Assembly: GCA_020060385.1 (NCBI GenBank)
Contig: JAGVAH010000010.1
Coordinates: 1-55,372, forward strand
Length of the DNA stretch: 55,372 bases
Source: Syntrophobacterales bacterium
GTDB lineage: Bacteria > Desulfobacterota > Desulfobaccia > Desulfobaccales > 0-14-0-80-60-11
Direction: 5' to 3'
A program made the position numbers and the translations under genes. The notes under the pieces were generated by a model. The model was not told the DNA's origin and did not search any database. It saw only the letters and a list, made by a program, of their open reading frames with translations. The first letter of the stretch is position 1. Each line of letters opens with the position of its first letter. This document shows, in pieces, positions 5,781 to 43,649 of the stretch.

Positions 5781-7304
5781 TTACAGGGTCCCGGCGAGTA
5801 TCGTCCGGGTGGAGGCCTTGGAAACCTTCTCCCTGTCTTTGGAGCGTTTGTTAGAGGAACTGCTCTTTTTGGAACTCTTGGGGGCGGCTTCGCCTTTTCT
5901 GGCCAACTGCACGCCGCTCTTTTTGCCGGTGGGCCTCTCCCGGGTCATGACCTTACCTTTGCCCTTGCCCTCCCGGCTGGCCACCTGGGTCTTGCTCCGG
6001 TCCTTGTGCCCGGACTTGGCTTGAGATGGCAGAGGCAGCACCGAAGCGGTGTGGACGGCCGCGGCCTTGCTCGGGGTGCGGTGGTGGGATCTTCCCTTTT
6101 TGGCTACGACCACTTCGGCCCGGCCTTTTTTCTTGCTTTTTCTGGCCGCGCTTTTGCTCTTCTTGTCACCCTTGTGGGTATGATTGCCTTTTACCTGATG
6201 GGCCGTAGCCCTATGGTGGGTGGAGGCCCTTCTGCTGGCAGTCCGGGTCGATCTGGAGGCCACCGCTGGATGCTCCAGGCTGGCTATCATGATATTTTTG
6301 GCAAAGAGCTCTTGGCTCTTGGCGGGCAGTTTCAAAGTGTAGGTGCCGTCAGGGGGGGTGATGCCCCGGAGCAGTTCCGGGTTGAGGGACTGTATCTCCT
6401 CCACCGGCACATTGACGGCCACGGCCGCGGCCTTCAAGGAAGTGGGCTCCTTGACCTGCACCTTGTCAATGGCCAGGGCCGGCAGGTAGGGGACCCCTTT
6501 GAACCCGAATTTCTCCGGGTTCTTGGCAATAATGGTGGCCGCAATCAACTGGGGCACGTAATTCTTGGTTTCCGTGGGCAGGCACTGGTTGGCGGAGAGT
6601 TCCCAGAAGTTTTTATGATTGCTATGGTTCAGCTCTTTTTGCACCCGGCCCTCGCCGCAGTTGTAGCTGGCCGCGGCCAGATACCAGGAACCGAATTGTT
6701 TATACAGGTCCAGGAGGTATTTGGCGGCCGCGCGGGTGGATTTTTCCGGGTCCCGGCGTTCATCCACGTAGCCGTCCATGGCCAGCCCGTAACGGGCCCC
6801 CGTGCCCCTGATGAACTGCCACATGCCGCAGGCATGGGCATGGGAATAGGCATTGGGGTTGAAACCGCTTTCAATCATGGCCAGATAGGCCAGGTCTTCC
6901 GGCAGGCCGTATTCCTGGAAGACCTCTTTGATCATGGGCAAATAGCGGGTGGAGCGGGAGAGATAGCGGCGGATGGTGCCCTTGCGTTCGGTGGAGAAAT
7001 AGACCAGGTAGGCCCTGACTTGCTTGTTCATCTGAATGGGGGCATCAAATTTGACCTGATGGTCCCATTTCTTCAATTCCTCTTCCAGGCTGGGGTCCCA
7101 ACCGGAGATGCCGCTCTTGGCGTAGAGTTCCTCCAAGCGCTTGGCGCTCAACTCCTCGGTCAAGGATGATTCATCATTATTATCGTCAGGAACTGCAGCG
7201 GTGGGAACTTGCGGAATCGGCTCCTGTTTTGCCACCTGGCGGCCGCCGCCGCAACCCGTCAACAGAAGAAAACACAGAACTACCCCCATCCCCCAAGAAA
7301 ACAT
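5781..7304 (-). CDS. mltD: MltD-like lytic transglycosylase lipoprotein
   Basis: Cleaves the glycan chains of peptidoglycan, probably from the inner face of the outer membrane. The N-terminus is a lipoprotein signal with lipobox LTGC (Cys18). The SLT domain spans about residues 117-265 with the catalytic Glu145 in AMIESGFNP and the family motifs GMWQF and AAASYNCGEGR. A single degenerate LysM-like segment follows at about 290-330. Residues 345-507 form a Lys/Arg/Ser/His-rich low-complexity tail, unlike standard MltD, which ends in LysM repeats; the tail could bind anionic wall polymers. GAGGAAA precedes the ATG. Transcribed alone, with a promoter candidate at 7413-7442. Confidence 0.9.
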   Translation of the reverse strand: MFSWGMGVVLCFLLLTGCGGGRQVAKQEPIPQVPTAAVPDDNNDESSLTEELSAKRLEELYAKSGISGWDPSLEEELKKWDHQVKFDAPIQMNKQVRAYLVYFSTERKGTIRRYLSRSTRYLPMIKEVFQEYGLPEDLAYLAMIESGFNPNAYSHAHACGMWQFIRGTGARYGLAMDGYVDERRDPEKSTRAAAKYLLDLYKQFGSWYLAAASYNCGEGRVQKELNHSNHKNFWELSANQCLPTETKNYVPQLIAATIIAKNPEKFGFKGVPYLPALAIDKVQVKEPTSLKAAAVAVNVPVEEIQSLNPELLRGITPPDGTYTLKLPAKSQELFAKNIMIASLEHPAVASRSTRTASRRASTHHRATAHQVKGNHTHKGDKKSKSAARKSKKKGRAEVVVAKKGRSHHRTPSKAAAVHTASVLPLPSQAKSGHKDRSKTQVASREGKGKGKVMTRERPTGKKSGVQLARKGEAAPKSSKKSSSSNKRSKDREKVSKASTRTILAGTL

Positions 7305-39541: not shown

Positions 39542-40416
39542 ACGTCCCTCTCTTTCCAAGAGGCTTATGGATATTTATCAAGTTTTGGTTTGGGAAATTG
39601 GGAAAAGGAAAGCCTGGAAAAGCTTTGGACCTGAGCCGGGTGTGGTCTGTGCCGGTAGAGTGCGCCGGTCAGCTCCGGGGCCGTCCTTCCAGGAAGCGTC
39701 CTCTCCGCTTCCTGGGGGTCTTGGCCAGTTTCAGATCCCTCCGTTTTTTACCGGGGCTGAAGCGTACCAGCTGAGGCCATCCACGCGGGCTCACAAAATT
39801 TATTGTGCCTTATAGCACAAGCTAGAAAGGCTGTCAAGAAAATATTTTTGGCAATACAGCTAACTATTATTTATTCTTAATAAAATAACTATAATAATTA
39901 TTGCCCATATGTTTAAAGGGTGATTATTCCTTATAAAGGGCTTTTTCTAGGAAAAATATGGAGCTTTTTCCCTTTAAAAACCATTATTTTCTTTAAAAGT
40001 GGGATATTTTTTTTTGAAAAAATTATTATTCTGAGAATATGTCAATAATGACCAAATTAAATAATAATAACTTTTAGTTAGCTAATAATTTAATTAATGT
40101 TTCCCACCCACCGCCTTCTGGATCCGGAACTTTAATTTTTTCCTAAAAAAAACCGGTCACGGGCCTCCGGGGAGGCAAACATTAGAAGTACGGCTGATGG
40201 TGTGGGTAGCGGCGAGAAAAACTGGAGTGAAAAACGGTTAAGGACTTACATGACCAGGTGCGGGGAGGGGCCGGAAATCTACAGTCTGATTACTTTACCC
40301 ACCTTCCTCAATAATTGCCACCGCCCACAGGAGTTGGAGGTGTGGGCGGAGGCCTGGGCCCCTGGCCCCCCCAAATTCCCCCTTCTTAACCCGCGGACCG
40401 CGGGTCCTCAAACCCC
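39542..40416. other. 875-bp region without a gene, with an AT-rich island
   Basis: From about 39790 to 40120 the sequence is roughly three quarters A+T, far from the GC-rich surroundings, with many TAATAATAA-like runs. A small palindrome GGAAGCG/CGCTTCC lies near 39692-39712 and TTGTGC/GCACAA at 39803-39820. The GC-rich part from 40200 carries only shadow frames of the selenoprotein gene. A hairpin ACCCGC/GCGGGT (40389-40405) lies past the selenoprotein stop but lacks a T run. Confidence 0.55.
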
Positions 40417-40632
40417 TCAGGAGCCCCCGAAGCCTATGCTCACCTGCCCGGCCTCCACCAGTACCGGCACCTTCCGGGCGCCCTTGGTGAGCTGCAGCAT
40501 CTCTTCCAGGGCCTGGGGGTCTTCCCGCACGTCCCGATAATTGACCTGGAATCCTTCCTTGCCTTTGGCCTCCCGGGCCCTCAAGGTAAAAGGTCAACTT
40601 TTTTTGCCGAAAATGGTCACCTCTGGGGCCAT
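40417..40632 (-). CDS. glutaredoxin-like selenoprotein with in-frame UGA (Sec)
   Basis: A 71-residue protein if UGA at 40596-40594 is read as selenocysteine. It starts MAPEVTIFGKKS-U-PFTLRAREAK, so the UGA takes the place of the first Cys of the glutaredoxin CPYC/CPFT motif; the rest (VREDPQALEEMLQL, KVPVLVEAGQVSIGFGGS) follows the thioredoxin fold with cis-Pro in KVPVL and the GFGG end. Translation past UGA stays in frame to TGA at 40417. GAGG lies five bases before the ATG, overlapping the upstream AMIN gene's end. A SECIS-like hairpin follows the UGA. NCBIfam describes similar Uxx-type glutaredoxin-like (seleno)proteins. No other Cys is present, so a redox role without Sec is unlikely. Alternative: a pseudogene with a Cys (TGC/TGT) to TGA mutation. 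Confidence 0.85.
40562..40586 (-). promoter_or_regulatory. putative bacterial SECIS hairpin
   Basis: CCTT-gag-GGCC-[CGGGA]-GGCC-a-AAGG. The apical loop begins 18 bases after the UGA and has G in its second position, matching the published rule for bacterial SECIS elements (upper stem-loop within about 16-37 bases, G in the first two loop bases). Confidence 0.75.
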
Positions 40633-40642
40633 ACTCACCTCG

Positions 40643-41824
40643 CTAACCGGTCTGCAGGAAAAAGACCTTCAGGAAGAGAAAATCCACCAGGTTGAGAATC
40701 ACCAGGGGATTTTCGGACAGGGTATATTGCACCCCTTCGAAGCGGGGGCTGACCTTTTTCTTCACCTTTTCCATAAACATTTGGAACAACTGGGGATTTT
40801 CAGGGCAGACCCGCTGCAGAAAGGTTTGGAAGACCTTGGCGTCCCGCAAGGCCACGTTTTGGGTCTCCTGGCGGAGCTTCACCCGCAGGGGCTTTAAGGC
40901 ATCATCAAAGAAATCGCCGATGTCTTCGAATTTCTGTCTTATCTGAGAGAAAGTCCACTGCCGCAAGCCCCGGTATTGATCGGCGGTCTCCCCTCCCAGG
41001 TTGTCGGTGGTCAAAGTAACGATGTTGATGCTGGGGGCCATGGGATTATTGGCCGGCAGATTGACGATCTTCACGGCCAGTTCCGGATATTGCCGGTTGG
41101 TGATGGTGTAGTCCCGGCTGAAGCGCTGCCCGGGGCGGTCATAGGTGTGGGATTCGGACACCACCCAGCCGTCCCTTTCCAACCCCTGGAGCAAGGGGCG
41201 CGCCTTGGGAATGAGGCGCTGCAACTCGGCAAAACTGCCGGGGGCCGCCGTGCCCCGTTCCTCTTTAAAGCCGTAATCTTCCGGCGCGGGCGGGGGCGGC
41301 TCTGGCTCCCAACGACCAGGGGTGTCCGGCGTCTCCGGGGGTTCAGGAGAGGGGGTCTGCCTCGCCACGGTGGCGGCGGCATCCGGCGTCAGCCCTAAGA
41401 TAAACATCGCCTGCCCGGCCGCGCCCGTGCGGGCTTGACGCCAGAATTTGTAAGGCTGCTCCGGAAAGAGCTCCAAAACGATCTTCACGCCCCCAGGTGA
41501 AGACATGGTGACCACCTGTTCCACCAGGAGGTCATCCCCGGCCATGCTGCTGGGCAGCCGGCCGGCCCGGGCCTGGGGAAATTCCACCACCAGTTGGGGT
41601 TTCCCGCCCTCTGAATGGGTGGAGACCCGGGGTTCGGCAGCCCGGCTCAAGACCACGGTGAGCATGGTGTTTTCCCCCACCCGGCTCAAGCCCACGCGGC
41701 GCACTTCCACCGCCGGGCTGCGCCCCCAGGTGGCAGCCGCCGACGCCACCAGAAACCCCAGGCAGAGGCAGATTATCCCTGCCCCGGGGATCTTCCCTGA
41801 CAGAATCTTGCTCGGAAGGGACAT
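40643..41824 (-). CDS. AMIN-domain exported protein
   Basis: 393 residues. A signal peptide or anchor (residues 15-32) leads to an AMIN domain (about 38-145; VEVRRVGLSR, TMLTVVLSRAAEPRVS, GGVKIVLELFPEQPYKF), a domain that targets proteins to peptidoglycan or secretion machinery in the periplasm. A Pro/Glu-rich linker (about 157-185) is followed by a 200-residue C-terminal domain I do not recognise (TYDRPGQRFSRDYTITNRQYP; NIVTLTTDNLGGE). The lipoprotein gene lies ten bases upstream and the selenoprotein gene starts over its 3' end, so all belong to one operon. Confidence 0.85.
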   Translation of the reverse strand: MSLPSKILSGKIPGAGIICLCLGFLVASAAATWGRSPAVEVRRVGLSRVGENTMLTVVLSRAAEPRVSTHSEGGKPQLVVEFPQARAGRLPSSMAGDDLLVEQVVTMSSPGGVKIVLELFPEQPYKFWRQARTGAAGQAMFILGLTPDAAATVARQTPSPEPPETPDTPGRWEPEPPPPAPEDYGFKEERGTAAPGSFAELQRLIPKARPLLQGLERDGWVVSESHTYDRPGQRFSRDYTITNRQYPELAVKIVNLPANNPMAPSINIVTLTTDNLGGETADQYRGLRQWTFSQIRQKFEDIGDFFDDALKPLRVKLRQETQNVALRDAKVFQTFLQRVCPENPQLFQMFMEKVKKKVSPRFEGVQYTLSENPLVILNLVDFLFLKVFFLQTG

Positions 41825-41835
41825 AAGCCGGATGC

Positions 41836-42213
41836 TTAGCCTCCTTCCGGGACCCGACGAAAATTCACGCAGGAGCCGGGAGGACAGCCGGGGTGCCAGT
41901 CGGCGGACATGTCCGCGGACAACAGGTTGCCGCCGTTGCCGGGAGTGACGATGAGGATGGCGCCGGATTTGGTGTAGATCCAGATCCTGCCTTCGTTCAC
42001 CATCCAGGTGAACTCCGTGGATTTTCCGGCATGGGTCCAGGTCCCTTTGCCATCCCCTTTGAGGTCCAGATCAACGAAACTCTTGCCGGCAAAGGGCTCC
42101 ACGGAGCGATACTTCCCCGCGAAGGGAGCGCGGGACTCCCCACAGCCCCCCAGGGCCAGGCAAACCATGACCAGACCAAGGATTGCGGCCAACTTCCAGA
42201 ATTCTTTCTTCAT
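41836..42213 (-). CDS. small lipoprotein
   Basis: 125 residues, signal peptide with lipobox LGGC (Cys24). The mature part is a compact beta-rich domain (GKYRSVEPFAGKSFVDLDLKGDGKGTWTH; WMVNEGRIWIYTKSGAI), like several small DUF lipoproteins; a C-terminal Cys pair (GCPPGSC) could form a disulfide. Unknown function. The ATG overlaps the stop of the upstream fusion gene by four bases (ATGA), so translation is coupled. Confidence 0.85.
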   Translation of the reverse strand: MKKEFWKLAAILGLVMVCLALGGCGESRAPFAGKYRSVEPFAGKSFVDLDLKGDGKGTWTHAGKSTEFTWMVNEGRIWIYTKSGAILIVTPGNGGNLLSADMSADWHPGCPPGSCVNFRRVPEGG

Positions 42214-43649
42214 ATTTTTCTATCCCGCAAGATGAACCCTCCCCGATCCAGGACCAGAAAGCGATCGTAGAGGAAGATTTGGATACACATCACCAGCATG
42301 CCCGCATTTTTGGTTACTTTCCACCAGTTCACCGGTTCTCCGACTTCCCCCACGCACCCGCAGTTGATGGGCAGGTGATGGAAAATAGCATCCACCAGCC
42401 CCACAATAAAGATGATATTCATGCCCGCGATCAGGGTGGCCGCGGCCCGGGTGCGGATGCCCAAGATGAGGAATAACCCCACCACCAGTTCCGCCCAGGG
42501 CAGGACCAGGGCCCAGAGATTCACCCCCCAGGAGGGCATCATCCCGTAGTCCACCACGTTCAGGGCAAAGACCGCGGGGCGCATAATCTTGCTCAAGGCA
42601 AAGGAGATAAAAATGAACCCCAGGATTATCCTGCCCACTATGGCCAGGTAGGGGCTGCGACGGATGGGGGGGATGAGGATGAGCAAGAAGATGCCCACCG
42701 GCAGCCACTCCACATAGCCCGGCAAACCCAGGGGCAGGCTGGCGGCTTCCTTGGGCTCTTGCCCTTCTATGGGAAGGGCGTGCGCCCAGCCGCTGTAATC
42801 TTTCAGGGCTACAACATGTTGCATGCCTTTTTGTTTCAATAACCGGCCCAGTTCCAGGTCGAAGCGCCGGCTGAAGGTGCCCCCGTAAACGATGATGGTC
42901 TTATCCTTGGCCCCCGGCGTCTGTTCCACCGTGAACTGGAACAGGGGGTACATCAGATCGAACAAGATCAAGGGCAGGTTTGAGGCGCCCTTGATGTGTT
43001 CCTGCTTATAAAAGGCGCTTTTCCTGGCATCCACCACGATGGCCTGGTTTTTCTTATACAATTCCTGGGCCTGCATCAGGGAAATTTCCGGAATATCGTA
43101 CTTGACACCCCAGTCGTGGACCAAAGGAATGCGGTTGTCGTTGTAAATGTTGACCACCAGGGCGAGGATGATGCTCAGGCCGATCATCAGGACGTAGTCA
43201 AACCAGGAAATCTGGCGCAGCTTGACCTGGTGCACCACCTCGCTCTCCAGGCGCCGGTCCCCGGAGATCAGCCATTGGGAGAGCTGATGGATGATATGCC
43301 GGGCCAATTGGGGGTTGTGATCCAATAAATGGTCAAATTCCTCTTTGGAGACCTTGATCAGCCGGGATTCTTCCATGGCCTCCACCGAGGCGGTGCGGGG
43401 CTGGCCGGTCACCAGGGCCACTTCGCCGAAATAGGCCCCCCCGGCCAGTTCCGTCAAATCGGTGCGGATGCCGTCCGCGGTTTCCCGGAAGACCTTGACC
43501 CGACCGGACTGGATCACATAAAAAAATTCCGGAGACTCTCCTTGGGTGACTAGGCGCTCACCGGCCGGGACCACCACCTCCTGCCCCAAATGGCACAATT
43601 TTAGCCCGTCCACCCCCTTGGATTCGGATGGTTTCTGCTCTTCAGCCAT
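42210..43649 (-). CDS. cyclic-nucleotide-binding / rhodanese-like / DoxX-MauE fusion protein
   Basis: A 479-residue protein with three parts. Residues about 15-140: CNB domain (PAGERLVTQGESPEFFYVIQSG, GGAYFGEVALVTGQPRTASV), a regulatory sensor. One membrane span (about 150-170) follows. Residues about 195-300: rhodanese-like domain with the usual lead-in QAIVVDARKSAFYKQEHIKGASNLP, but the catalytic loop reads VYGGTFSRR, so the active Cys is absent. Residues about 320-479: four or five membrane spans of the DoxX/MauE redox-partner type, with NCGC near 430. First gene of an operon with the lipoprotein, AMIN protein and selenoprotein; an exported redox or maturation role is suggested. Confidence 0.85.
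   Translation of the reverse strand: MAEEQKPSESKGVDGLKLCHLGQEVVVPAGERLVTQGESPEFFYVIQSGRVKVFRETADGIRTDLTELAGGAYFGEVALVTGQPRTASVEAMEESRLIKVSKEEFDHLLDHNPQLARHIIHQLSQWLISGDRRLESEVVHQVKLRQISWFDYVLMIGLSIILALVVNIYNDNRIPLVHDWGVKYDIPEISLMQAQELYKKNQAIVVDARKSAFYKQEHIKGASNLPLILFDLMYPLFQFTVEQTPGAKDKTIIVYGGTFSRRFDLELGRLLKQKGMQHVVALKDYSGWAHALPIEGQEPKEAASLPLGLPGYVEWLPVGIFLLILIPPIRRSPYLAIVGRIILGFIFISFALSKIMRPAVFALNVVDYGMMPSWGVNLWALVLPWAELVVGLFLILGIRTRAAATLIAGMNIIFIVGLVDAIFHHLPINCGCVGEVGEPVNWWKVTKNAGMLVMCIQIFLYDRFLVLDRGGFILRDRKI

Follow-up and report, generated by a model that had tools for sequence, protein, structure and literature searches.

A predicted two-selenocysteine UXX-star family 1 gene from a Syntrophobacterales bacterium, with a selenocysteine UGA close to its UGA stop codon

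Identification of the gene and of its family

The window studied here, by which we mean the whole stretch of 55,372 nucleotides, carries on its minus strand (40408 to 40632) what is, in all likelihood and judging from sequence, a complete gene of UXX-star selenoprotein family 1, coding for 74 amino acids with one selenocysteine (Sec) at residue 13 and another at residue 72. The translation, the NF041114 profile and the relatives of the gene all point to this identification. The frame opens at the ATG at 40632, runs through MAPEVTIFGKKS to the TGA at 40596-40594 and goes on in frame with PFTLRAREAK; this read-through without loss of frame, described in the original prediction, was seen again in the sequence. 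The first UGA (40594 to 40596, minus strand) would encode Sec13, where a glutaredoxin-type motif, here UPFT, has its catalytic residue. Near the other end come the TGA at 40419-40417, the codons GGG GTT and the TGA at 40410-40408, in this order. Reading the first of these TGAs as Sec gives the tail GGSUGV, and the 74-residue product is then MAPEVTIFGKKSUPFTLRAREAKGKEGFQVNYRDVREDPQALEEMLQLTKGARKVPVLVEAGQVSIGFGGSUGV, followed by a stop. The original prediction had ended the gene at the TGA at 40417, and so misplaced its 3' end because the second Sec was missed: that UGA (40417 to 40419, minus strand) is very probably the codon of Sec72, in a C-terminal U-x-V-stop or "UXX-star" motif, and the true stop is the UGA at 40408 to 40410 on the same strand, 6 nt past its end. 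A Shine-Dalgarno-like GAGGTGA (40635 to 40641, minus strand) agrees with the ribosome binding site proposed earlier. The overlap with the upstream gene, claimed at the same time, does not exist, as the upstream gene stops at 40643 and leaves a gap of 10 nt.

The 74-residue form matches NF041114 (UXX-star selenoprotein family 1) over 70 of 70 positions with 106.2 bits (E = 7.5e-31), the curated cut-off of NCBIfam being 72 bits. It also exceeds the cut-offs of the umbrella model NF041212 (Uxx_star; 83 bits, cut-off 66) and of PF00462 (Glutaredoxin; 39.5 bits, gathering cut-off 22.9), and stays under those of the other UXX-star and glutaredoxin models of NCBIfam. Both motifs of family 1 are present, the N-terminal UxxT as UPFT at residues 13-16 and the C-terminal U-x-x-stop, with its Sec codon, as GGSUGV-stop. 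The host genome gave a second NF041212 match, L002 with 30 bits, where the sequence is glutaredoxin-like with an ordinary CxxC. In a 2026 review (PMC13188914), NF041114 is listed as "Distant Grx-like protein 1 (UXX-star selenoprotein family 1)", with the motif UxxT and 2 Sec, and is assigned no precise function. Since it is listed there with 2 Sec, the two-Sec kind is already catalogued, and the gene of the window departs in nothing from the definition of family 1.

Conservation of the two UGA codons

An NF041114 match over the cut-off was found in 100 of the 395 genomes of the phylum, most of them with two UGAs, and in 21 of the 22 genomes of the host's family; this frequency in the family and the E value given above exclude a chance resemblance. 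Both UGAs are present in 19 of these 22 genomes; the two other carriers are a form with Cys13 and a gene cut by the end of a contig. We read 82 members, namely the window's own gene and 81 from relatives. Site 13 is a TGA in 73 members and a Cys codon (TGC or TGT) in the 9 others, which is the alternation of Sec and Cys in homologues that had been named in advance as support for a selenoprotein. Site 72 is a TGA in all 82 members. The search for this second site targeted TGA, and none of the sequences dropped out for it. The tail U-x-[V/I]-stop ends 79 of the 82 members, the position of the stop being kept in 79, and the stop codon which follows this tail is itself UGA in 42 of the 79.

Relatives under or near the family threshold tell which part of the protein varies. 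Four of them (L209, L211, L216 and L219) have the tail Sec alongside CPYC or CPFC dithiol sites, and in the sub-threshold L202 (G111) the catalytic Cys or Sec has become Gly (GGPYT), yet the C-terminal U-G-V-stop is kept. In the same sub-threshold and borderline set, relatives with a normal last helix do not have the tail Sec. Because the tail Sec is retained with dithiol sites as well as with Gly, it appears to be the constant part of the family, rather than the Sec of UPFT, bearing in mind that the family cut-off favours tail-bearing sequences. By comparison of sequences, the evidence for the second Sec appears stronger than that for the N-terminal one.

In one genome (L065, G367) UXX-star family 1 is present as a tandem pair of genes, at 6060-6272 and 6485-6697, about 210 nt apart. 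No relative was found in the plasmid records searched, and the matches in viral contigs were all distant glutaredoxins, which share 29-35% identity and stop short of the tail.

Hairpins downstream of the two UGA codons

The published criteria for a bacterial SECIS (PMC13188914, Fig 2) are a loop of 3-9 nt, an upper stem of 4-16 bp, a G among the first two nucleotides of the loop, a distance of 16-37 nt from the UGA to the loop and a minimum free energy of at most -7.5 kcal/mol. Folding gives one candidate behind each UGA. Hairpin 1, for Sec13 (40567 to 40579, minus strand), has a 4-bp GC stem and a loop CGGGA situated 18 nt past the UGA. The original prediction had described this loop correctly, with its G in the second position, but had let the hairpin begin 18 bases after the TGA, which is the distance of the loop; the stem starts at 14 nt. 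Hairpin 2, for Sec72 (40388 to 40406, minus strand), has an 8-bp stem and a loop GUC, again 18 nt past its UGA. It starts two nt past the stop codon, and all of it belongs to the 3' untranslated region; being outside the coding region, it is therefore free of coding constraint. The energy is -13.5 kcal/mol for hairpin 2, and -12.4 kcal/mol for the 40-nt stretch of hairpin 1, the 4-bp hairpin by itself having -5.3. In both hairpins the stem, the spacing, the loop length and the place of the G are within the published limits, and so are the energies of the stretches as folded. Folding of the single sequence, which is weak evidence, gave z -1.44 for a 61-nt stretch and -1.41 for hairpin 2, and hairpin 1 by itself is not more stable than its shuffles (z -0.15).

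The relatives are more informative about hairpin 2. Counted on unaligned sequences, a hairpin of at most -8 kcal/mol is found at its site in 74% of the 82 members; at control sites located in and behind the same genes the share is 3-5%. Among the 14 genomes of the order, which were not selected, 90% of the stem cells are paired and the covariation is 0.379, against at most 0.133 for slid controls. In a set of 34 members, 91.9% of the stem cells are paired and the covariation is 0.877, while the controls reach at most 0.152; this set was picked for showing a hairpin and is therefore biased. In an alignment of the downstream regions of all 82 members the stems were out of register, and it was left out of the covariation analysis.

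As hairpin 1 overlaps conserved codons (Ala-Arg-x-Ala), we compared it with synonymous recodings of the same stretch. Members with Sec13 have an average of -3.7 kcal/mol, against -0.9 kcal/mol for the recodings, and 23 of the 73 reach p<=0.05, against 0 of the 9 members with Cys13; the gene of the window has p=0.05. Thus the conserved hairpin expected downstream of the internal UGA is indeed stronger in many relatives than the choice of synonymous codons would give. Hairpin 1 is also present in a Cys13 relative (G166), and one group of relatives does not have it. On these comparisons hairpin 1 appears supported, but weaker than hairpin 2.

Selenocysteine-decoding machinery

The host genome has SelA (597 bits), SelB (364 bits) and SelD (377 bits), all over their cut-offs, the gene of SelD carrying an internal UGA itself, and two genes of tRNA-Sec, both of 78.3 bits (G000:C30:27215-27308 and G000:C134:25843-25936). 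The sel genes that a selenoprotein calls for are therefore in the same genome. Together with the NF041114 match, the Sec/Cys column and the downstream hairpin, they bear out the central claim of the original prediction, a glutaredoxin-like protein containing Sec. In the phylum, selA is too common to test co-occurrence (355 of 395 genomes).

Several genomes with UXX-star have no selA match. Three of them combine a two-UGA UXX-star gene with SelB and tRNA-Sec: G038 (SelB in L146/L153, tRNA-Sec in L157), G069 (L148, L155, L159) and G272 (L147, L154, L158). G038 is a single contig of 2.54 Mb, 99% complete, and has three copies of tRNA-Sec. In these three genomes SelA gave nothing at E<=1e-3 and SepSecS nothing over its cut-off, and none of the SelB or tRNA-Sec genes read had a SelA-like open reading frame beside it. 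The missing SelA, a point against the two-Sec reading, may reflect either a gap in the data or a divergent Sec synthase.

Two other readings of the gene have to be weighed against all this. Without the relatives, a TGA which ends an open reading frame resembles a stop, and one could suppose that only the UGA at 40594-40596 is recoded and that the UGA at 40417-40419 is a normal stop, giving a protein of 71 residues; this shorter form is already over the NF041114 cut-off, with 97.1 bits. The second Sec, however, raises the score to 106.2 bits and completes the match, and the ending U-x-[VI]-stop of 79 of the 82 members, the covariation of the hairpin behind this UGA and the 2 Sec given to the family in PMC13188914 all speak against a normal stop. 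We consider the 71-residue reading very improbable. Even less credible is a broken gene, one in decay or wrongly assembled, whose internal UGA would be a nonsense mutation. A draft assembly of 175 contigs and two stop codons in frame could raise this suspicion, but the relatives refute it: both UGAs are found in 19 of the 22 genomes of the family and in most members across the phylum, and the protein sequence downstream of the internal UGA is kept, with 61-84% identity within the order.

Predicted fold

AlphaFold2 (ten sequences) predicts a glutaredoxin fold for the two-Sec protein with a mean pLDDT of 87.9, and the best PDB matches found by Foldseek are glutaredoxins and NrdH. The last helix of glutaredoxins is absent from the model, which ends in a short extended tail, so that in the model this helix is replaced by the tail GG-S-U-G-V. 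Two short strand segments can be noticed, at residues 54-55 and at residues 72-73, the latter comprising the tail Sec. Segment 54-55 directly precedes Pro56, which is conserved, corresponds to the cis-Pro of glutaredoxins and adjoins the active site. Because the two segments stand alone in the secondary-structure string with no other obvious partner, the Sec of the tail is probably situated next to the active site.

Genomic context

Within the host's order, the UXX-star gene is the last of a conserved operon. All its genes mentioned here are on the minus strand. The first gene of this putative operon (42210 to 43649) codes for a membrane protein of 479 amino acids in which, according to Pfam, cNMP-binding, rhodanese and MauE/DoxX domains are joined; it is found on the same strand as UXX-star in 13 of the 14 genomes of the order, and a search starting from this fusion protein found UXX-star downstream in 10 of 10 named relatives. 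It is followed by the gene of a small lipoprotein-like protein (41836 to 42213), near UXX-star in 8 of the 14 genomes, and by the upstream neighbour (40643 to 41824), an open reading frame for a secreted AMIN-like protein of 393 amino acids, which adjoins UXX-star in 13 of the 14. The original prediction had called this neighbour the AMIN gene; the resemblance holds, but no Pfam AMIN match was found at E<=0.01. The operon has no metal-resistance gene. Its named relatives suggest that the host is a Desulfobacca-like bacterium of the former Deltaproteobacteria.

Elsewhere in the phylum the neighbours of UXX-star are mostly housekeeping genes, and the operon appears, from the genomes compared, to be specific to the host's order. 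Hence the rhodanese/MauE protein cannot be the general partner of UXX-star. The neighbourhoods of the UXX-star family were reportedly treated in an original paper by Haft and Tolstoy in 2025.

Possible mechanism and function

We propose that SelB, with Sec-tRNA-Sec, would decode the UGA of codon 13 with the help of the in-gene hairpin, and the UGA of codon 72 by way of a hairpin situated wholly past the stop codon. Counted between their first bases, the Sec72 UGA and the stop UGA are 9 nt apart, with 6 nt lying between the two codons. To judge from the spacing, the stop UGA would be too near the hairpin to be recoded and would end translation. The tail Sec and the Sec of UPFT (Cys or Gly in some relatives) may form an active pair, which would reduce a substrate or take sulfur from it, and in the host's order the likely partner would be the co-encoded rhodanese/MauE-DoxX membrane protein. 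The gene product may in this sense be the Sec redox enzyme of the operon that the original prediction supposed.

We give about an even chance to a function as a selenol/thiol redox relay, the likeliest of those considered, for which the chemistry and the substrate are our deduction; the rhodanese/MauE protein can be put forward as its partner only tentatively. Residue 13 can be Sec, Cys or Gly, whereas the Sec of the tail does not change, and on this ground the tail Sec, rather than that of UPFT, may be the essential residue. It is possible, though doubtful, that everything holds together, that is, that the tail Sec is essential, that the protein is the selenium-based sulfur relay of a cNMP-controlled rhodanese/MauE-DoxX system and that the UGAs are told apart by their spacing from the hairpins.

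Two further functions compete with the relay, neither of them affecting the reading of the gene itself. Metal binding has been suggested for the Sec residues of UXX-star (PMC13188914), and both selenols could bind a metal or metalloid (Hg, As, Cu) in a chaperone or detoxification protein; a tail Sec kept with Gly at residue 13 (L202) would fit a ligand. The glutaredoxin fold, a catalytic Cys column which is Sec or Cys in 82 of 82 members, and an operon endowed with rhodanese and MauE-DoxX domains instead of metal-resistance genes argue in the other direction. Metal binding is a fair rival to the redox relay, and we rate it as rather unlikely. We think much the same of a carrier whose Sec residues would pass on sulfane sulfur (or selenium) from the rhodanese domain, cNMP sensing being placed on the membrane partner here too: the association with the fusion protein in 13 of the 14 genomes of the order and in the 10 named relatives favours it, but the neighbours differ outside the order.

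Comparison with known systems

The tail of mammalian thioredoxin reductase is Gly-Cys-Sec-Gly. It has in common with the predicted protein a Sec near the end of a flexible tail, and this is a resemblance only: the architectures are unrelated, the mammalian enzyme depends on a eukaryotic SECIS, and the protein of the window has no FAD domain. Closer are the classical glutaredoxins and NrdH (PF00462, TIGR02181, PDB 1h75, 3ic4, 7c10), with which it shares the fold, the cis-Pro segment and the active-site column CPxx. It differs from them by Sec instead of Cys, Thr instead of the second Cys, the absence of the C-terminal helix and the added C-terminal Sec. A classical dithiol glutaredoxin, considered as a candidate, was rejected, for the protein has UPFT instead of CPYC and its model is without the C-terminal helix. 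NF041211 (family 2), NF047338 (family 3) and NF045501 (HUGP/GUXX-star fusion) also have a glutaredoxin-like domain and, close to the C-terminus, a Sec, but the protein of the window reaches only 43-51 bits with them, the cut-offs being 100, 97 and 325.

With UXX-star family 1 (NF041114) the likeness is complete: a full-length match, UxxT near the start, U-x-x-stop at the C-terminus and two Sec. An annotation which halts at either UGA misses the UXX-star protein or truncates it. The succession of a Sec UGA, two codons, a stop UGA and a hairpin makes a compact natural construct for studying how SelB separates neighbouring UGAs; if our reading is true, this pair of differently read UGAs is a natural test of the spacing rule of SelB. 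Compared with family 1 at large, the gene of the window stands out by an operon partner specific to the host's order. Two things are added here: in one order of Desulfobacterota this partner, the membrane protein with cNMP-binding, rhodanese and MauE-DoxX domains, is conserved, and of the two Sec residues the one in the tail appears to vary less.
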